From positions 1 through 34,959 of IMG/VR virus record IMGVR_UViG_3300034012_003042: 34,959 bases of DNA. One strand, written 5' to 3'. The notes under the pieces were generated by a model that saw only the letters and a list, made by a program, of their open reading frames with translations, made no database searches and had not been told where the DNA came from. This DNA is from a virus. A program made the position numbers and the translations under genes. Positions 4,277-34,956 of this stretch are shown piece by piece. Numbering within the stretch: the stretch's first letter is position 1; the number at the start of each line of letters is the position of its first letter.

Positions 4277-5305
4277 TCAGGACACGCAGGTGGTGTAGAG
4301 GAAGCCGGTGGTGGCGCCACCGATCACGAACTCCGAGTCGGAGTGCGAGGTCTTGATGAACACGCCGCCGCGCACGCCGCGGAGGCTGTCGACGATCTCG
4401 GTGGTCTCCATCGAGCCGAAGCGGAAGGTGTAGCCGAACGTGCGGGTCGCGCGCGGCGACGGGGTCCGCTCCACGCGGATGAGCGCGGTGGACTTGCCCC
4501 AGAGGTAGTCGCTCGAGGCCGACGCGCCTTCGTGCGCCGAGTTGTACTTGGCGCGGCCGATCACGACGTTGTCGAGGCCGAACGCCTCCGCGAAGAGCTG
4601 CTCGTTCACGCGGAGCGGCACATCGCCCATCGTGGTCGCGGAGCGCGAGAGGATGTACTGCAGCACCTTCGGGTGGTTGCGGAGCTTGATCCAGACCTGC
4701 GCGCCGATCACCATGGTGTTGGGGCGCACGAAGCAGGACTCGATGGCGTCCTCGATCTTCTGGATGGGGTCCGAGGTCGCGACGTCCCAGCGGTCGGCGC
4801 CCGAGAGGGCGGCGGTGTTGGAGCCGTAGTTGCCCGACGCGAACGCCACGTCCGCGACCCGCTTCTCACGCGCGAGCATGAGGAAGTTCATCACGATGTC
4901 CTGCGCGTAGATTTTGGGCTGGAGCGGCGCATCGGCGTTGGCGATCTCGTCGTTGGAGACGAAGTCCATCAGCGCGTAGTCGCTGACCGCGTAGGTGAGC
5001 GACGACTCGATGTTGTACTTGACCTCGCCGGGCATGCCGCGGGGCGAGGCGACCGCGGAGGCCGCGACCTCCTGCATCGTGGTCACCGGGAACGAGAAGA
5101 TCTTGTCCGAGCGGTGCTTGACGCTCAGGACGGGCAGCACGCTGTCCGCGATGTACTCGCGGTTGTTGTACTGCACCGCCAGGTTGGTCAGCGCGCGGTC
5201 GATGTGGACGGCGCTCGGGGAGAGCGACATCAGGTGGGCGGCTTCGGCGGCGCCGATGCCGTGCGATGCGAGCATCGCGGCCTGGAGGTTTTGGATGGAG
5301 GTCAT
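4277..5305 (-). CDS. Major capsid protein (HK97 fold, gpE/Mu gp34-like)
   Basis: A 342-residue protein lying between the decoration protein and the head-completion genes. Recognisable features of gpE/Mu-type capsid proteins are the N-terminal arm, a VQYNNREYIADSVLPVLSV segment (about residues 43-61), a central spine helix region (MNFLMLAREKRVADVAF) and a C-terminal FRFGSMETTEIVDSLRG. Length matches the family (about 305-345 aa). It forms the capsomers of the icosahedral head. An ATG at 5303-5305 follows a 12-nt gap after the decoration gene. Confidence 0.85.
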   Translation of the reverse strand: MTSIQNLQAAMLASHGIGAAEAAHLMSLSPSAVHIDRALTNLAVQYNNREYIADSVLPVLSVKHRSDKIFSFPVTTMQEVAASAVASPRGMPGEVKYNIESSLTYAVSDYALMDFVSNDEIANADAPLQPKIYAQDIVMNFLMLAREKRVADVAFASGNYGSNTAALSGADRWDVATSDPIQKIEDAIESCFVRPNTMVIGAQVWIKLRNHPKVLQYILSRSATTMGDVPLRVNEQLFAEAFGLDNVVIGRAKYNSAHEGASASSDYLWGKSTALIRVERTPSPRATRTFGYTFRFGSMETTEIVDSLRGVRGGVFIKTSHSDSEFVIGGATTGFLYTTCVS

Positions 5306-8393: not shown

Positions 8394-9700
8394 GCGCGGC
8401 CCTGCGACCGTACCAGCATTGGCCGCGCTTGCAAAGGAGCGATCGGCCTGTCCACCACGAGATCGGTGAGCGCCCACACCAGCGCATCGAGGCGGTCGGG
8501 GCTCGAGGTGTCCGTTGCCGGATCCCACCCGGCGCACTGGTCCTCGAGGCGCGCGAGCAGCCCGACGTGGGAGACGCGCCCCTGCTCGTAGAGCGCGGCG
8601 ACGGGCTCGGCCCGCAACGCCTTGCCGCGGCTCGCACGCACGGCCACGACGTGGCACGCGGGGTCGACGGTGCGCAGGACCGACGCCACAAGGTCGCCGC
8701 CGTTGTTGACCTCGGCCACGATGCGGTCGGCGCGATGGCGGCGGTACGCCTCGACCGCGCGCCGCGCCCACTGCTCCGCGGGGTAGGTGCCAGAGAGATC
8801 CTCGAGGACGTAGGCGCGCCCGTCGAGGCCGACCCCGGCCACGATGATGCCCGTCTCATCGCTGCCCTCATGCGCGGTCACCGCCGGGTCGATCGCCACG
8901 ACCACGCGCCTCATGGCGGGCGCGGAGTCCACGCGGGAGGCGTCGAACATCGCCAGCCGCCAGAGCGCGCCGGGGGCATCGTCGAGGATCTCACCGTCAA
9001 GCTCTTGGCGCCCCAGGCGGGTCGACCCATAGCGGGCTGTGAGCGCCGCCACGACGCCGGGCGCGAGGTTGCTGGCGTTGTCGGCGGTGCGCCCGCGGGT
9101 GATGGCCGTGGTCGCCGATGCGGCCAGGGCGCGGACCAGCGGCGTCGGGCGCGGCGTGGTCGTGACGCAGACCCTCGGGTCGGAGCCGAGTCGGAGGCCC
9201 ATCTGCAGCTGGTCCCACGCGTCGGGGTAGCGCCACGCCGCGAGCTCGTCGCACCACGCCGCGTCGTGCTGAGGGCCGCGGAGCTGGTCGGGCTCCTCGG
9301 CGCTGTAGGTCGTCGCGATCGCCCCGTTGGGCCAGGTCAGCCGGCGCTTGGATGGCTCCCACACCGGGCGCTCCGAGTCGGGGCAGCACGCGAGGATCCC
9401 GCTCTCGCCCTCGATCAGCACGTCCCTCACGTCGGCGGCGGTGCGCGCCACCAGGGCCACGCGGCGAGCCTTGCCCGATGCGACGATGGCGCGCACCCAC
9501 TCGGCGCCCGTGCGGCTCTTCCCCCACCCGCGCCCGGCGAGGATGAGCCAGGTCCTCCACTCACCGACGGGCGGGAGTTGATCCGGGCGCGCCCAGTAGC
9601 GCCACAGGTGGAAGGCGCGCGCCCGCTCGGCCGGGGAGAGCTCCCGGCGCAGGTCAGCGGCCCGTAAGGCGGTTGAGCTTGGCGAGCAGGGCGTCATCAT
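8387..9700 (-). CDS. Terminase large subunit
   Basis: A 437-residue packaging ATPase/nuclease. Residues 55-62 are the Walker A variant AGRGWGKS. The Walker B acidic pair is D151-E152 (AAWCDELAAW), followed by a TTTPRP coupling segment. The RNase H-like nuclease domain begins around residue 267 with AIDPAV (D271) and continues with EVNNGGD and SSPDRLDALVWAL near the end. The AAWxDExxxW motif points to the COG5323 type found in gene-transfer agents and many siphoviruses rather than to Mu gp28. The ATG at 9698-9700 lies 47 nt inside the small terminase gene and has AGAGGT just upstream. Confidence 0.9.
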   Translation of the reverse strand: MMTPCSPSSTALRAADLRRELSPAERARAFHLWRYWARPDQLPPVGEWRTWLILAGRGWGKSRTGAEWVRAIVASGKARRVALVARTAADVRDVLIEGESGILACCPDSERPVWEPSKRRLTWPNGAIATTYSAEEPDQLRGPQHDAAWCDELAAWRYPDAWDQLQMGLRLGSDPRVCVTTTPRPTPLVRALAASATTAITRGRTADNASNLAPGVVAALTARYGSTRLGRQELDGEILDDAPGALWRLAMFDASRVDSAPAMRRVVVAIDPAVTAHEGSDETGIIVAGVGLDGRAYVLEDLSGTYPAEQWARRAVEAYRRHRADRIVAEVNNGGDLVASVLRTVDPACHVVAVRASRGKALRAEPVAALYEQGRVSHVGLLARLEDQCAGWDPATDTSSPDRLDALVWALTDLVVDRPIAPLQARPMLVRSQGRAW

Positions 9701-10079
9701 CGACCTCTACCGCGACCTTCTCCGCAGCGTGCTCGCCCGTGAGCTTCGCCAGCGCCGTGCGAGCCGTGCCCGCCGCCCGGCTGGTGTCGTTGACCTGCGC
9801 CACGGCGCCCTGCGCCACCTTGGCGTCGGCGTCCGACAGCATCGGGCGCAGGCGGGCGAGGGCCACGCGTTGGAGACGGGCGGCTTCGCTCATGACGGCG
9901 TCCAGCTCACGCGCGTAGACCGTGGAACGATCTGCCTTCGACGGATGCCGCCGCAGCGCCCTCGCGACGCCCCCTGTCGTGCGCCCGATGGCCTCTGCCG
10001 CCCGCGTGAACGACCCGGTGCGTAGGTAGACGTCCAGCGCCACGGCGAGATCGGCGGGGGTGATCGGCGGTCCAGGCAT
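9654..10079 (-). CDS. Terminase small subunit candidate
   Basis: A 141-residue protein with an N-terminal helix-turn-helix (residues about 8-45: DLAVALDVYLRTGSFTRAAE then IGRTTGGVARALRRHP), a central helical oligomerisation region (ARLQRVALARLRPMLSDADA) and a charged C-terminus. This matches small terminases, which recognise the pac/cos site and stimulate the large subunit. It is the first gene of the late block and overlaps the large terminase. The gene is named from its domain layout and position. Confidence 0.7.
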   Translation of the reverse strand: MPGPPITPADLAVALDVYLRTGSFTRAAEAIGRTTGGVARALRRHPSKADRSTVYARELDAVMSEAARLQRVALARLRPMLSDADAKVAQGAVAQVNDTSRAAGTARTALAKLTGEHAAEKVAVEVDDDALLAKLNRLTGR

Positions 10080-10343
10080 CGTCCAGCCATCATGCGCCCT
10101 CCACCTCGAGGCGTCCAGCCGCTACACCCTGCTACACCGCTACGCCCGCTACGGCTGTTTTCCGTGGAGGGGGGGCACATTCTCAGAGCGCCCGCCTACA
10201 GCCCACCAGTACACTGCCCTTACATATACGCGGGAGGGTGTAGCGGTGTAGCAGTAGTGATGGAACGCTTGCGGCGTAGCCGTTTGGGCTGCTACACCCT
10301 CCCTCCGACGAGGGTGTAGCAGGGTGTAGCGGGTGTAGCGGCG
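10080..10343. promoter_or_regulatory. Non-coding region with GGTGTAGC repeats; candidate origin, operator or late promoter
   Basis: These 264 bp lie between the primase gene and the small terminase gene, both on the minus strand. Eight exact copies of GGTGTAGC are present: five in plus orientation (starting 10237, 10245, 10313, 10323, 10332) and three inverted (GCTACACC at 10121, 10131, 10291). Near copies GCTACGCC (10139) and GCTACGGC (10148) extend the left cluster. A lower-GC stretch at about 10215-10230 (TTACATATACG) lies in between. Iterons beside a primase gene suggest a replication origin. The late operon also needs a promoter here. I could not name a convincing -35/-10 pair. Confidence 0.6.
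10291..10320 (-). terminator. Perfect 11-bp hairpin after the primase gene
   Basis: GCTACACCCTC (10291-10301) pairs perfectly with GAGGGTGTAGC (10310-10320) across an 8-nt loop. The hairpin begins 24 nt beyond the primase stop codon. It lacks a U-tract on the minus strand, so it is a weak candidate for intrinsic termination. It also consists of two facing GGTGTAGC words and may equally be part of the repeat array as a protein-binding palindrome. Confidence 0.4.
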
Positions 10344-12395
10344 TCACGGATCGCGTTGCCAGATGCGCGCGTTGCGCCCGTCGACCCGCAGCACGTGGCA
10401 GCGGTATCCGAGGCGCCGCATGATGCCGCCGAGGCGGTTGCTCTCCCGCTGGCCGGCGTGCGCCAGCTCCATCGCCAGTGCTGCCGTGAGGATGCGGATG
10501 GACGTCAGCGCCTTGGCGCCGTCTCCCGCCCGCTCGGGGGCGTCTAGCCACTCGGAGACCCGTGCCTCCCATGGGTCGACCGTGCGAAACTCCTCGGCGG
10601 CTTCTCGCTGCGCGGCGTCGGCCTCGGGGGTGAGCCACCACGTTTCGCTCGCGCGGGATGCCGCCACGGCCTCCGCCCAGAGCTGGTCGCGGTCGCGCGC
10701 CAGGGCGTCCTGGTCGATGGCGCCGGGCACCCGCACGCACCAGAAGCGCCGGTCGCCGGTCGGGTCGGCCAGGAAGGCGTCTTCGTTGGTCGACCCGACG
10801 ATGACGTTGCAGCGCGGGTGGCTGCTGACCGCCCGTGCGTAGGCCGCGCGGTACTTGTCCACCTGGGAGCTGACGAACGCTTTGATGCGCCCTGCGTGGG
10901 CGCGGCCGGTCACGTGGTCGAGTTCGCCGAGCTCATAGATCCACGCATGGTTGATCTGCATCATGGCGTCCTTCGATTCGAGGTCGACGGCGGTGTCGGC
11001 GAACCACTCGCCCCCGAGGATGCGGAAGAAGCTCGACTTGCCGACGCCCTGCGGGCCGACGAGGACCAGGCACGTGTCGACCTTGCAGCCGGGCGTGAGG
11101 GTGCGCGCCACGGCGCTGACGAACCACGCCCGGATGCACGTGACATTGATCGGCGTGGCTTCGGCGCGGAGGTAGACCTGCGCCACGGTGTCCAGCCGTT
11201 GGACGCCGTCCCAGACCAGCCCCTCGAGGTACTGACGCACCGGGTGATAACTGCGCTCGCTGGCAACGGTGACGATCGCCTGGCACAGCGCGTCGTTAGC
11301 GGGCGAGAAGCCGTAGCGGTTCTCCATGTCCTCGCGGATGGCGCCCAGGCGAGCGTCGGAGAGCATCGCGCCCTCGATCTCAGGCGCGACGGTCATCGCG
11401 TTGAATCGGAGCGTCGCGTACTCGGGAGCGTGTCGCAGGAGGCAGCACACGTTGGCGAAGGTGTTCTTGATCGCGCCCTTGGCGGTGCGGTGCAGCTTGT
11501 CCATCCAGTCCGCTTCGTCGGTCGTGGTCTGCAGGACGTCGATCATCGCCGCTACCGCCGGGGGTTCGAGCTGTCGTCGGACCTTCGCGGCGTACTCCGG
11601 CGACAGGCCCGGCGCGACGGAGCAGGCGCTCCTGGCGATGGTCTCGACCTCGGCATCGTCCAGCGGGGGTACGCAGGCGACGGCGTTGTGCGCGGTGAGC
11701 GTGGCGAGGATCACGCCGGCGTCGAGTCCCTTCGCCCGGAGCGACCGTCCGAGGGAGAAGAGCGCGTTGTTGCGCCCACCCTCGCCCACGACAGCGGCAA
11801 CGGCTTCGACCGGCGCGGCGGAACGCTTCGGCGTGGCAATCCGCGCGAGCCAGGCGGGGGGCATCTCGCCCAGCGCCACGCCGTCGGTGGGGTCGCTGGA
11901 TGCCTCCCAGGAGTACACCCCGCCGGAGACGTGGTTGGACGGCGGGGCCACGACGTAGCCGCCCTCGCCGCGGATGTCGACGCCGGGGGCAAGCGTCGAA
12001 GCGGAGTTGCGAACGGTCGTCCCCTCGGGCTCTTTGAGATAAACGTGTCGGCCGCTGCCGCCGGTCTGGGCCTCGACGGTATCGGGCAACGGCCCGAGCT
12101 CTTCGACCAGGGCATCCCAGCTCTCGTCGCCACCGTGCCGCGGGTCGATGTCCGCCACAACCAGCCCCTTGCCCGTGGCGATGCCGATGTTGGCGCTGGG
12201 CCACTGCCGCCACCAAGCACGGATCTGCGTGGCGTCGAGGGTAGCTTCCTTAAGGCCGGTCTTCGTGCGCGGATGCTTCCCGGGGGAGCTGCACTTCCGG
12301 TTGCCACACGAGCACTGGGTGCCCGTGGCGCGGCACTCGTAGATGGGGAACACCCGCCAGCCGCGCGCCGCGTAGGCGAGAGCGTGTTCGATCAC
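10344..12395 (-). CDS. Bifunctional primase-polymerase / VirE-type helicase
   Basis: A 683-residue replication protein. Residues 1-190 form a prim-pol domain: ARGWRVFPIYE, a Cys cluster (C21, C28, C30, C35), KHPRTKTG, the catalytic VVADIDP (D82/D84) and GGSGRHVYL. Residues about 195-265 look like a primase C-terminal linker helix domain. Residues about 385-600 form a virulence-associated E / D5-like SF3-type helicase with Walker A GPQGVGKS (447-454), acidic Walker B WIYELGEL, then VGSTNEDAFLADPTGDRRFW. It would prime and unwind phage DNA at the fork. The ATG overlaps the PC4-like gene stop by 4 nt. Confidence 0.85.
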   Translation of the reverse strand: MIEHALAYAARGWRVFPIYECRATGTQCSCGNRKCSSPGKHPRTKTGLKEATLDATQIRAWWRQWPSANIGIATGKGLVVADIDPRHGGDESWDALVEELGPLPDTVEAQTGGSGRHVYLKEPEGTTVRNSASTLAPGVDIRGEGGYVVAPPSNHVSGGVYSWEASSDPTDGVALGEMPPAWLARIATPKRSAAPVEAVAAVVGEGGRNNALFSLGRSLRAKGLDAGVILATLTAHNAVACVPPLDDAEVETIARSACSVAPGLSPEYAAKVRRQLEPPAVAAMIDVLQTTTDEADWMDKLHRTAKGAIKNTFANVCCLLRHAPEYATLRFNAMTVAPEIEGAMLSDARLGAIREDMENRYGFSPANDALCQAIVTVASERSYHPVRQYLEGLVWDGVQRLDTVAQVYLRAEATPINVTCIRAWFVSAVARTLTPGCKVDTCLVLVGPQGVGKSSFFRILGGEWFADTAVDLESKDAMMQINHAWIYELGELDHVTGRAHAGRIKAFVSSQVDKYRAAYARAVSSHPRCNVIVGSTNEDAFLADPTGDRRFWCVRVPGAIDQDALARDRDQLWAEAVAASRASETWWLTPEADAAQREAAEEFRTVDPWEARVSEWLDAPERAGDGAKALTSIRILTAALAMELAHAGQRESNRLGGIMRRLGYRCHVLRVDGRNARIWQRDP

Positions 12396-17230: not shown

Positions 17231-17379
17231 GCGCCAGCCCCGTCCGCGGTCAGGGCGCAGGCGACGCAGCCCGCGCCCGCGAGGAGCAGCCCGGCGACGA
17301 CGGCGCCGACGAGCACCAGCGCGCCGCCGGTCGTGACGACCAGCAGCGACAGCGCGTAATCGCGTGACGCGCGGCTCAC
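17227..17379 (-). CDS. Small membrane protein (50 aa)
   Basis: The product begins VSRASRDYALSLLVVTTGGA and continues with LVLVGAVVAGLLLAGAGCVA, giving one long or two short transmembrane segments between residues 8 and 42, with positive charge at the N-terminus. The GTG at 17377-17379 overlaps the repressor stop codon (GTGA). Two genes downstream lies the transglycosylase-like gene. The size and topology would fit a holin-like protein, but many small phage membrane proteins act in exclusion instead. Confidence 0.6.
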   Translation of the reverse strand: MSRASRDYALSLLVVTTGGALVLVGAVVAGLLLAGAGCVACALTADGAGA

Positions 17380-17567
17380 AGGCACCCCGCGAAGAGGCTC
17401 TCGACCGTGGCGTCGAGGGCGCGAGCGATCCGCAGCGCGGAGCGGACGCTGACGCCCAAGCCGCTCTCGGCGCGCTCAATGGTGCCGCGGCGCACGGCCG
17501 CGCGCAGGGCGAGCTCGGTGCGGGAGAGGTGCTGTCTGGTGCGGAGGGAGGCAATCGGGTGGTCCAT
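17376..17567 (-). CDS. XRE/Cro-CI family transcriptional regulator
   Basis: A 63-residue single HTH protein: MDHPIASLRTRQHLSRTELA, LRAAVRRGTIERAESG, then VSVRSALRIARALDATVESL. These are the classic HTH_3 elements (helix 2 LSRTELALRAAV, recognition helix RRGTIERAESG, and helix 4-5 IARALDATVESLF). A GTG at 17574-17576 would add three residues; I prefer the ATG. It is transcribed divergently from the early operon and is the likely repressor or Cro-like switch protein. It has no C-terminal oligomerisation or cleavage domain, so it is not a full CI-type repressor. Confidence 0.8.
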   Translation of the reverse strand: MDHPIASLRTRQHLSRTELALRAAVRRGTIERAESGLGVSVRSALRIARALDATVESLFAGCL

Positions 17568-17699
17568 GCGCTGCACAGTACACAGACCGCGCGTTGGTGC
17601 AAAGTTATTATCCGTTTACTTTTTTCTTGCACGCCGTCGCGGGAGGGCCTACTCAATGGTCACCGCAGCGGATCAACCCCCCGCCGCGGCAGGATCACC
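17568..17699. promoter_or_regulatory. Divergent promoter/operator region between repressor and early operon
   Basis: This A+T-richer stretch contains two facing promoter candidates. Rightward: TTGGTG (17594-17599), 17-nt spacer, TACTTT (17617-17622). Leftward: TTGCAC (rc of 17597-17602), 16-nt spacer, TACTGT (rc of 17575-17580), with the start point at about 17568 and hence an almost leaderless repressor mRNA. An inverted repeat GTGCAA (17597-17602) / TTGCAC (17627-17632) flanks the rightward core promoter, and its left arm overlaps both -35 elements. This is the natural operator candidate for the adjacent HTH protein. Confidence 0.6.
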
Positions 17700-19664: not shown

Positions 19665-20558
19665 ATGACGACGACGAAGAAGACCGAAAAGACCCTGCAG
19701 TTCACGACGCACAAGCCGACGACGCCCGCGGCTGCGGTCACCCGCGCCGTGATGCTGGTGACGCCCGCGCTCGCGGCTGAGTGGCTCAAGAGCAACACCA
19801 ACAACCGACAGTTGAGGAAGAACGTCGTGGAGACGCTCGCAAACATCATCCGTCGAGGCGAGTGGCACACCACGCATCAAGGGATTGCGTTCGGAACTGA
19901 CGGCGCTCTCTACGATGGGCAGCACCGGCTTCGCGCGATCGTTGAGGCTGGCATCGGGGTACACATCGAGGTGACCCGAGGGTTGCCTATGATCGCCGTG
20001 GATGCGATCGACACCGGGGGGACCGTCCGCAGTGCCCGCGACGTCCTGGCTATCAGCGACGGGTTAAAGCTGACGTGCACGCAGAACGCCACGTACGCGA
20101 TGGCGGCCTGCCTGATGGACTTCTCGCGGGTCGACGCGCGACGCCTGACCGCCGATCGTCTGCGTTCTGCGGTTCGTGACCACAGCGCAGCTACGACCGC
20201 GATCTGGTCTGCCGTAGGGACGGTGCATCACACCCTGCGCGCGCTCCCCGCAGCCGTCACCGGCAGCCTTGTGGTGTCGTGGCACTCTCAGCCCGCACGC
20301 GCGTGCGAGTTCGCGCTGATGCTGCGGACTGGCGAGAATCTCAGCAAGTTTCACCCCGCGCTCATGCTGCGGAACTACATCGCGAGCCGCGCCAACCACG
20401 CAGGCTTGATGGGGCAGGGAGCACTCGTATCTCGCACGTTTGCGGCCTTCGATGCCTTCGTTCGCGGCGGCACGCTCCAGGTTCTGAAGGCCAACGATGG
20501 CGCTCGCGACAAGTACGTGATCGCGGCCCGCCGTGCGGTCGAGACGGCCAACGCCTGA
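19665..20558 (+). CDS. DGQHR/ParB-like domain protein
   Basis: A 297-residue protein. After a Thr/Lys-rich N-terminus comes [20 protein letters not shown] (31-50), then [20 protein letters not shown] followed by [10 protein letters not shown]. The DGQHR box (84-88) and the preceding G-x-I-x-x-x-x-x-G-x-L-x-D pattern identify the ParB/Srx-like fold of DGQHR proteins. The remaining two thirds are helical. Phage members are widespread; proposed roles include DNA partition-like binding or nuclease/NTP hydrolysis, none proven for this type. Flanked on both sides by copies of the same double-hairpin element. Confidence 0.6.
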
Positions 20559-20649
20559 CACGCGGGGCGGGCTACGGCCCGCCGCTGCCTCGACTGCACC
20601 CGAGGGCGCAGCGGAGGGAGCGGCGACGACTCCGAGGGAGATGACGACG
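20553..20649 (+). repeat. Intercistronic double-hairpin element, copy 2
   Basis: Nucleotides 20553-20594 repeat 19562-19603 exactly, including hairpin A (20566-20583). Hairpin B differs in sequence but keeps the fold: CTGCACC-CGAG-GGCGCAG (20594-20611), seven positions with one A/C mismatch and two base-pair changes that preserve pairing relative to copy 1. GGAGGGAGCGGCG and CCGAGGGAGA motifs follow as in copy 1, ending in the start region of the pentapeptide gene. Confidence 0.75.
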
Positions 20650-21174
20650 ATGACGACGATCACAGAGCGATACGCGACGGGCGAACGGGATTTCGCCCGC
20701 GCGTACCTCTACGGCGCGGACCTCACCAGCGCGAACCTCAGCGGCGCGAACCTCAGCGGCGCGAACCTCCGCGGCGCGTACCTCAGCAGCGCGAACCTCT
20801 ACGGCGCGGACCTCAGCGGCGCGGACCTCTACGGCGCGTACCTCCGCGGCGCGGACCTCAGCGGCGCGGACCTCAGCTGCGCGAACCTCAGCTGCGCGTA
20901 CCTCAGCAGCGCGAACCTCAGCTGCGCGAACCTCAGCGGCGCGAACCTCAGCGGCGCGGACCTCTACGGCGCGGACCTCCGCGGCGCGAACCTCACCGGC
21001 GCGAACCTCAGCGGCGCGAACCTCCGCGGCGCGTACCTCAGCTGCGCGAACCTCAGCTGCGCGAACCTCAGCGGCGCGAACCTCCGCGGCGCGGACCTCA
21101 GCGGCGCAAGGCGCTTGTCGACGGACGCGCCCGTCGCGGGCTACGCGCTAGTGACCGTGCTGGAGCGCGCGTGA
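20650..21174 (+). CDS. Pentapeptide-repeat protein
   Basis: A 174-residue protein. After [15 protein letters not shown] there are 28 consecutive A(D/N/Y)L-type pentapeptides (about residues 16-155), the last degenerate, then a short tail ending ALVTVLERA. This composition folds as a right-handed quadrilateral beta helix. Some family members (MfpA, Qnr) mimic DNA and bind gyrase; most are uncharacterised. Here the outward positions are Ser/Gly/Arg/Tyr/Cys. The ATG at 20650 has GAGGGAG 9 nt upstream; the ATG at 20641 is an alternative but sits directly against it. Its stop overlaps the next GTG. Confidence 0.9.
20701..21105 (+). repeat. Array of 27 tandem 15-bp units coding for pentapeptides
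   Basis: Each unit is GCG-(A/G/T)AC-CTC-xxx-xGC or close. Ala is always GCG and Leu always CTC through the 27 units, and Gly is always GGC. This DNA-level uniformity goes beyond what the protein repeat requires and indicates recent expansion or gene conversion by 15-bp steps. Confidence 0.9.
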
Positions 21175-33381: not shown

Positions 33382-34600
33382 TGGTTGGCTCTATCACAAG
33401 CGCGCCGAGGGGGAGCAGTCGCAGCCGGCTGAGGGTGCCGCCCGACCGCGATCGTCGGAACTCAAGGCCGACGATGAGCATGTCCTCGTCCAGCGGGGAG
33501 CCGTCGGCCGCGAGGCAGACGTCATCGCGTACGCGGGCGATCGTGTTGAGCGCGTAGAGGGTCTGCACGCCGTCCAGAGTCTGCCCGTGGCCTCGCACGG
33601 TGCATTCGTAGGTGCGGAAGTTCCGCATCGCCTCCATGACCACGCGAGCGCCTTCCTGCGCGGCCCGTGCACGGGTGCGCGCCTTCTGCGACCGCTGGTG
33701 GCGCGGCTGCGGGGGGAAGGGGTCGAGGGTCAGGCCGCGGGAGATCGCCGGGTTGGTCAGCCCGACGTTCTCGGTGATGCTCGCGGACCTCGAGGAGACG
33801 CCAGCGCCGCGGGCGCCGCCCGTGTAGACCGCCACCGTGGTCGGCACGCCCTTGATGCTGATCGTCTCGCCGCCCGTGAGGACGTTGCCCTCGTACTCCT
33901 CCGACCCGGTGATCTGGCGTCGGAGCAGGACGTAGGACGGCGTCCCGTTGGTCACGGGGACATCGACCACCAGGGCGATGCCGCGCTCCGCATCGGGCGC
34001 CACCCAGATGAGATACCCCAGCCGGGCGACGATGCTGGTCGCGAATGCCCACACCTTATCCCCAGGCTGCGGGTGCGCGGCGTCCACGCGTACCGTGCGC
34101 GCCGAGGTGCGAGCCGTCCCTCGAGGGCCATGCGCGCGACCCGAGGTGACCCGCACGTTGGCGATGCTGTCCACCACGCGGCACGGCACCCCGAGCGGGC
34201 CGAAGACCTGCGGGAGCGCCTCTCCCAACGACATGCTGGCGATGGACAGCGTGGGGTCGGCGTCGAAGTCCATCGCGGGACCAGCGAGGTCGCGACCCGA
34301 GAGGATCACCGTCGCGCCGTCCTTGCGGCTGGCCTCGGTGCGGATCGTCTCGATGCGGCCGGTGAGCTGCGTGGCGTTGTCGATGGACAGCGAGACGTCA
34401 TCGCCCGCGCGCACGAGGGTCTTGATGATGTCCCAGGTCGTGCGCCGCGCGGCTGATCGAAAGAACGCGAAGGTCCACGCGTTGCCGCTCTGCAGCATGT
34501 CCAGCGTGATGACGTACTCGTCCCACACATCGATGGCCGTGCCCGATGTGCAGAGCAGGAGGTCGACGGTGTGGTCGTATGGCGTCGGGTCGATCGTCAC
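33374..34600 (-). CDS. Baseplate hub protein (Mu gp44/gpP, late control D-like)
   Basis: A 408-residue protein. It starts MTIDPTPYDHTVDLLLCTSG and contains TLVRAGDDVSLSIDNATQLT, ATVILSGRDLAGPAMDF, GYLIWVAPDAERGIALVVDV, then a long DNA- or strand-rich middle and a C-terminal FRRSRSGGTLSRLRLLP. The pattern (D-x-V-x-x-x-x-D, then V-x-G-R-D-L) is that of gp27/gpD hub proteins, which trimerise to join the tube to the spike. Located directly upstream of the spike gene as in Mu. Confidence 0.8.
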   Translation of the reverse strand: MTIDPTPYDHTVDLLLCTSGTAIDVWDEYVITLDMLQSGNAWTFAFFRSAARRTTWDIIKTLVRAGDDVSLSIDNATQLTGRIETIRTEASRKDGATVILSGRDLAGPAMDFDADPTLSIASMSLGEALPQVFGPLGVPCRVVDSIANVRVTSGRAHGPRGTARTSARTVRVDAAHPQPGDKVWAFATSIVARLGYLIWVAPDAERGIALVVDVPVTNGTPSYVLLRRQITGSEEYEGNVLTGGETISIKGVPTTVAVYTGGARGAGVSSRSASITENVGLTNPAISRGLTLDPFPPQPRHQRSQKARTRARAAQEGARVVMEAMRNFRTYECTVRGHGQTLDGVQTLYALNTIARVRDDVCLAADGSPLDEDMLIVGLEFRRSRSGGTLSRLRLLPLGALVIEPTNG

Positions 34601-34956
34601 GACGGCAGCACCGTCACGACGGTCCCTGCGGGCACTAGCAGCGGGTCGGGGAAGCTGTTGGCGGCGTAGAGGAGCGAGGTCTTGCTGATGTCGTTGTAGA
34701 CGCTCGCGGCGATCTCACACACGCCCATGTCGGCGGGGACGACGAAGTACCGCACGCCTGCGATGCCCGGTGCGAAGCGCGCGTAGTAGCCCTGCGTGGC
34801 AACCCGCAGCGTCAACAGCGCCGCGTAGGCGGCGGCGGCGTCGAGGCCCGTCATCGAAGGCAGCGAGAGCGCGTAGGCGATCGCCCCGAAGAGCACCGAG
34901 AACGCGCCCTGCACCTCGGAGTAGGGCAGCACCAGCGACGACTCCAGCAGCGTCAT
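34597..34956 (-). CDS. LysM-like baseplate/tail protein at the window edge
   Basis: A 119-residue protein starting MTLLESSLVLPYSEVQGAFS at an ATG 3 nt from the window end; the true start could lie further right. The first half is hydrophobic and helical (GAIAYALSLPSMTGLDAAAA). The last 45 residues (FVVPADMGVCEIAASVYNDI, then SKTSLLYAANSFPDPLLVPA) have the LysM shape: a G-(D/V)-x-x-x-x-I-A-x-x-x-Y-x-(D)-x-x-x-x-x-x-L-x-x-x-N pattern ending P-x-G. Such small LysM proteins lie between the tape measure and the hub gene in Mu-like and P2-like phages. Confidence 0.65.
   Translation of the reverse strand: MTLLESSLVLPYSEVQGAFSVLFGAIAYALSLPSMTGLDAAAAYAALLTLRVATQGYYARFAPGIAGVRYFVVPADMGVCEIAASVYNDISKTSLLYAANSFPDPLLVPAGTVVTVLPS

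Follow-up and report, generated by a model that had tools for sequence, protein, structure and literature searches.

An iteron array directly 3' of a primase-helicase gene as the putative replication origin of a tailed phage

The alpha protein of satellite phage P4 is a primase-helicase initiator that reads short iterons, the type I iterons of ori and crr. In PICIs, the origin lies immediately 3' of rep and has an AT-rich region with an iteron set on either side (PMC6092414). The Cch2 protein of SCCmec specifically recognises direct repeats located shortly after its own gene, and the C-terminal domain by itself also binds this putative origin (PMC7581432). An essential element is also located 3' of the replication gene in pRN1, where it takes the form of a 100-nt stem-loop (PMC4234260). 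The locus described here belongs to a viral record of 34,959 nucleotides (IMG/VR IMGVR_UViG_3300034012_003042), which was analysed over its whole length and is called the window below. Its layout is that published for the origins of PICI/SaPI and of SCCmec Cch2, here found in the genome of a tailed phage.

The window encodes a large terminase, a tail sheath and baseplate hub proteins, and it therefore derives from a tailed phage and not from a PICI. Its ends (1-400 and 34597-34956) are not closed, with tube and sheath genes on the left and the baseplate hub on the right, and as no tape-measure gene is seen between the tail genes at the two ends, the break is probably in the tail region. A candidate lysogeny switch lies at 17376-17630, beside an HTH_3 repressor-like gene and between the minus- and plus-strand operons, where GC content over 50 bp falls to its minimum for the contig (40%).

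The window contains nine exact copies of the word GGTGTAGC, where 0.55 copies are expected by chance. Eight of these fall within 10121-10339, for which a rough Poisson estimate (eight copies in 219 bp) gives 5e-25, and the sole copy outside the array is at 4427. Exact copies are present on the minus strand at 10121, 10131 and 10291 and on the plus strand at 10237, 10245, 10313, 10323 and 10332, and the two one-mismatch iterons, both GGCGTAGC, lie at 10139 (minus) and 10273 (plus). An earlier note on this DNA had described eight exact copies plus near copies of an 8-mer in about 220 bp, in both orientations, in a gene-free gap between primase and terminase, and each of these points was borne out (primase stop at 10344, small-terminase-like start at 10079). 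Its expectation that the 8-mer would be confined to this region also holds within the phage. Its perfect palindrome is also real, but the arms are 13 bp long and not 11. The neighbour spacings of 8, 10 and 9 bp, from which it had placed the sites on nearly the same DNA face, are correct inside clusters and keep the iterons there in phase, but helical phasing does not extend over the entire array (vector strength 0.35-0.42). A cluster of 8-mers denser than the array, and the densest in the contig, is made up of the coding repeats of a pentapeptide-repeat gene (20533-21174). The features of the region are collected in Table 1.

Table 1. Features of the region between the primase-helicase and small-terminase-like genes, with both neighbours
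Feature	Coordinates	Strand	Remarks
Small-terminase-like gene	9654-10079	-	start 40 bp from array
Intergenic region, proposed replication origin	10080..10343		primase-helicase stop to small-terminase-like start; conserved in place in L011, L091/L233
Primase-distal iteron set	10121..10155	-	GGTGTAGC at 10121 and 10131, GGCGTAGC at 10139, two-mismatch GCCGTAGC at 10148
Conserved non-iteron element TTTTCC-n-GGGGGGGCACATTCTCAGAG	10158..10192	+	also in L011, L228, L232
Spacer between iteron sets	10193..10236		with start of next set, the region's least GC-rich part
Two abutting iterons	10237..10252	+	spacing 8 bp
One-mismatch iteron GGCGTAGC	10273..10280	+	block nearly identical in L011
Inverted iteron pair (hairpin)	10289..10322		13-bp perfect arms (10289-10301 / 10310-10322), 8-bp loop
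Three tandem iterons	10313..10339	+	spacings 10 and 9 bp; end 4 bp from primase stop codon
Prim-Pol + PriCT_1 + VapE/SF3 helicase with C-terminal winged helix; proposed iteron-reading initiator	10344..12395	-
Predicted winged-helix domain, codons 600-683; proposed iteron reader	10347..10598	-	pLDDT 85.7; word covariation

The array is conserved in relatives. In L011, whose primase is 79% identical to that of the window, seven exact copies of GGTGTAGC are found with their spacings of 9, 10, 22, 46, 8 and 106 preserved. Identity between the two is 94% for the iteron bases (75/80) and 73% for the rest of the region (113/155; Fisher p 1e-4), and the part of the hairpin stem that lies outside the iterons is not preserved, unlike the iteron words. 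The earlier note had held that homologous phages with both neighbours and no array would count against it; none was seen, and L011, the sole relative with both neighbours, keeps the array. In L091 and L233, whose primases are 56% identical to that of the window, an array of GGTGTAGC again lies 3' of the primase stop; its iteron sets are separated by AT-rich DNA, and the downstream genes differ from those of the window. Such AT-rich spacers are clear in L230, L231 and L233. The gene behind the array in L232 and L091 had been read by eye as ParB-like, a reading that was dropped as there was no Pfam match. The element TTTTCC-n-GGGGGGGCACATTCTCAGAG is found in only five IMG/VR contigs and sits inside putative origins with differing iterons (L011 at 4278, L228 at 6160 and L232 at 5005, in the last inverted relative to the primase).

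Arrays were also sought blindly, using only DNA and requiring three GGTGTAGC in a row. This search recovered L091 with its 56%-identical primase, L050 with a VapE gene and L108 with a Prim-Pol/D5 gene, each of these genes near an array. In bacterial genomes the same search returned at least 120 stretches, many of them one-orientation tandem repeats of period 12 or period 9, which look unrelated to the array. Two inverted tandem sets of GGTGTAGC about 120-200 bp apart are present in six bacterial contigs (L129 at 728-963, L166, L183, L206, L226 and L114) from Prevotella/Hallella and relatives and from an alphaproteobacterium; the spacer is AT-rich in L129, the one contig of these that was read. 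In L106 (7238-7397), an array of GGTGTAGC follows an AAA_25 (RepA-like) gene without Prim-Pol, beginning 5 bp past its stop codon, so that a similar word apparently serves, or was met by, a different type of initiator.

The recurrence of arrays 3' of homologous helicases was surveyed in loci gathered by protein search alone, and not by motif, after dereplication at 85% identity. Each 400-bp window of a locus was scored by the count of its commonest 7-mer on either strand, using exact words, and the 400 bp after the helicase stop were compared with all other windows of that locus. The post-stop window ranked strictly first in 35 of the 87 loci, where 2.4 would be expected (binomial 2e-31). As controls, the 400 bp before the gene came top in 0/80 and those after other long ORFs in 3/464. 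About half of the homologous loci have no array by the exact-word test. Where arrays are found, the words vary by phage and include TGTGATG (L228), GGTAACA (L236), GACCGTC (L240), CGGAACA (L241), CTTCCAA (L244) and CCTCCCA (L250), among others; most of the arrays have both orientations, and many contain direct repeats at varied spacings. A universal TGT anchor in all iterons was considered and set aside, as TGT occurs in about 19 of 43 words, by a rough estimate only mildly above chance.

Sixteen cultured phages were put through the same test, and seven have a strong array: P. aeruginosa LPPA36, S. pneumoniae 040922, S. thermophilus P738, Paenibacillus Lena, Staphylococcus phiSP15-1, Corynebacterium Troy and Rhodobacter RcDora. 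The exact-word test is negative for most of the remaining phages, including Dorea NatCom, Bacteroides BT50, Caulobacter BL94, Leuconostoc phiLM0121, Pseudoalteromonas PY6, E. coli ECOO78 and Cellulophaga phi3ST:2. Taken together, the survey and the cultured phages indicate a feature that is common and not universal, at least with exact words. The Streptococcus PICI Javan339, used as the positive control, scores with the word TGTAGCC. The word of this array (L356, 4366-4722) nearly equals that of the window, although the initiators of the two are only distantly related. A literature search for iterons with VapE phages found nothing, although subscription journals were thinly covered and earlier reports are possible.

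The protein encoded next to the array has 683 residues and contains Prim-Pol, PriCT_1 and a VapE/VirE helicase domain (Pfam VapE and DUF5906). Its AlphaFold2 model has a mean pLDDT of 90.8. Residues 295-683 match the structure of PriRep1 bound to dsDNA (7pds) with a Z of 32.3 over 386 residues, and residues 1-190 match the Prim-Pol of pRN1 ORF904 with a Z of 13.9. By sequence, 7pds was the sole match of the family profile in the PDB (E 2e-96). The last 84 residues, modelled alone, form a helix-helix-helix-wing arrangement, and their best structural neighbours are mostly winged-helix domains at a modest Z of 5-6. By these domain and structure matches, the initiator is of the self-loading D5/VapE helicase kind with a predicted C-terminal DNA-binding domain. 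The candidate for binding the iterons should be the primase-helicase itself, which is not among the RHH, HTH and PC4-like proteins that the earlier note had named for a binding test.

Judging by the sequences compared, the word appears to change along with the enzyme between phages. The natural chimeras L227 and L228 share Prim-Pol domains that are 97-98% identical while their winged helices are 28-35% identical, and their words are TGTAAC and TGTGATG, respectively. The pair L230 and L232 also has 97-98% identical Prim-Pol domains, with winged helices 31-33% identical and the words GTAGC and TGTTACC. Both pairs differ in the helicase as well as in the winged helix; the word changes with the C-terminal half of the protein. 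Within the close clade, the AUC for a shared word is 0.51 for Prim-Pol, 0.84 for the helicase and 0.89 for the winged helix, values drawn from pairs that are not independent and from words that were read by eye in L227, L230, L231 and L232. The helicase core is nearly as good a predictor of the word as the winged helix, and in the distant set the winged helix has no lead over it. The word TGTAAC is also shared by L266 despite a dissimilar winged helix. These observations count against the explanation preferred below. We would put at about an even chance the broader proposal that the Prim-Pol/VapE modules of tailed phages are widespread, movable initiator-origin pairs. Under this proposal, the downstream word would be swapped along with the C-terminal winged helix and possibly also the helicase core, so that near-identical primases use different origins; the pairs would form a readable recognition code, and the origin would be predictable from gene position alone.

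Conservation in relatives, recurrence 3' of homologues, covariation of the word with the C-terminal half and the published precedents all support the reading of the array as an origin. We infer that it is very probably the iteron replication origin of this phage, bound and served by the adjacent primase-helicase. Copies of the primase-helicase would use their C-terminal winged helix to bind the GGTGTAGC iterons and, once bound on the two oppositely oriented iteron sets, would assemble as helicase hexamers. DNA melting by the hexamers may follow, either between the two sets or next to them, with the Prim-Pol domain priming synthesis, which would lead to theta replication with a presumably bidirectional start. 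The spacer flanked by the two sets is a tentative candidate for the melting site, and its GC content is 52% at best (50 bp from 10220) compared with 71% for the contig. That this spacer is only relatively AT-rich counts against an origin, as do the roughly half of loci that are array-less by the exact-word test. The same is true of the cumulative GC skew, for which the earlier note had predicted a minimum at the array; the curve instead keeps rising across the array and has a weak local maximum near 12.9 kb. DnaA boxes (TTWTNCACA, one mismatch allowed) are absent near the array, which is a further point against an origin. A DnaA-dependent iteron plasmid origin was set aside on the same ground.

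The array also lies upstream of the terminase and structural genes on the same strand, and a regulator bound to the iterons could in principle control their transcription as a late-gene operator. Initiator binding could itself repress transcription, as in autoregulated plasmid replicons. Alternatively, with the small-terminase-like gene starting so close by, the iterons might be a pac site read by its product. Either function would tie the array to the terminase, whereas in relatives it is tied to the primase. An additional ORF separates array and small terminase in L011, and in L232 and L091 the array remains 3' of the primase with other genes behind it and the packaging genes at least 2 kb further on. 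The TGTAGC word is present in L091, in just such a packaging-distant setting. The recurrence of the array goes with the primase-helicase family, and no sigma-70 promoter-like or terminator-like site was found in 9900-10500, in a scan that is weak for a 71% GC phage. An operator is very improbable, and a pac site even more so. The earlier note had offered origin or late-gene operator, and the origin has held up; the operator has not, since in relatives the array stays with the primase as the gene behind it changes.

A different kind of origin, in which a hairpin or stem-loop and not the iterons is the essential element, has been suggested for the replication proteins of pRN1 and phage BIP-1, whose architecture is similar (PMC4234260). 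The 13-bp perfect inverted repeat at 10289-10322 fits such a stem-loop, as does the match of the Prim-Pol domain to pRN1 ORF904, and the minimal replicon of pRN1 requires a stem-loop 3' of orf904. This reading is weakened because the stem is lost in L011 outside the iterons, while the words themselves are kept, and the direct repeats, dual orientations and varied spacings of many homologues do not suit it. A conserved stem-loop origin of the pRN1 type was accordingly rejected and has very little probability here. The preferred reading remains an iteron origin served by the primase-helicase.

To our knowledge, replication origins have been assigned in only a minority of the phages that are known from metagenomes alone. 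A simple rule, to look directly 3' of the primase-helicase stop, yields a strong origin candidate for about 40% of such loci and extends to phages of laboratory hosts. The natural swaps between L227 and L228 and between L230 and L232 make the specificity of initiator for origin directly testable. The survey suggests that tailed phages share the PICI/SaPI-type layout, which bears on the source of satellite replication modules. The locus itself is of a known type, and it is the survey and the natural swaps that form the part of specialist interest.

Compared with the described systems, the locus is like the PICI/SaPI origins in having iterons immediately 3' of the primase-helicase gene, arranged as two sets around a spacer, in an initiator whose helicase half matches PriRep1 in fold and sequence, and in a word close to the TGTAGCC of Javan339. 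It differs in that the array sits in a tailed-phage genome that has terminase, sheath and baseplate genes of its own and not in a satellite, that Prim-Pol is fused to the helicase and that the spacer is not strongly AT-rich. SCCmec Cch2 shares the short repeats just downstream of the helicase gene; its iteron is the 5-nt AAGTG in three copies and it has no fused Prim-Pol, whereas the iterons here are 8 nt long and number ten. The P4 word, which we take to be GGTGAACA, appears to resemble GGTGTAGC. P4 alpha has a different primase domain, and its iterons are split between ori and crr. With pRN1 of Sulfolobus, the locus shares an initiator (ORF904) that combines Prim-Pol, SF3 helicase and winged helix, and an element 3' of its gene, but the essential element is a 100-nt stem-loop in pRN1 and a set of iterons here.
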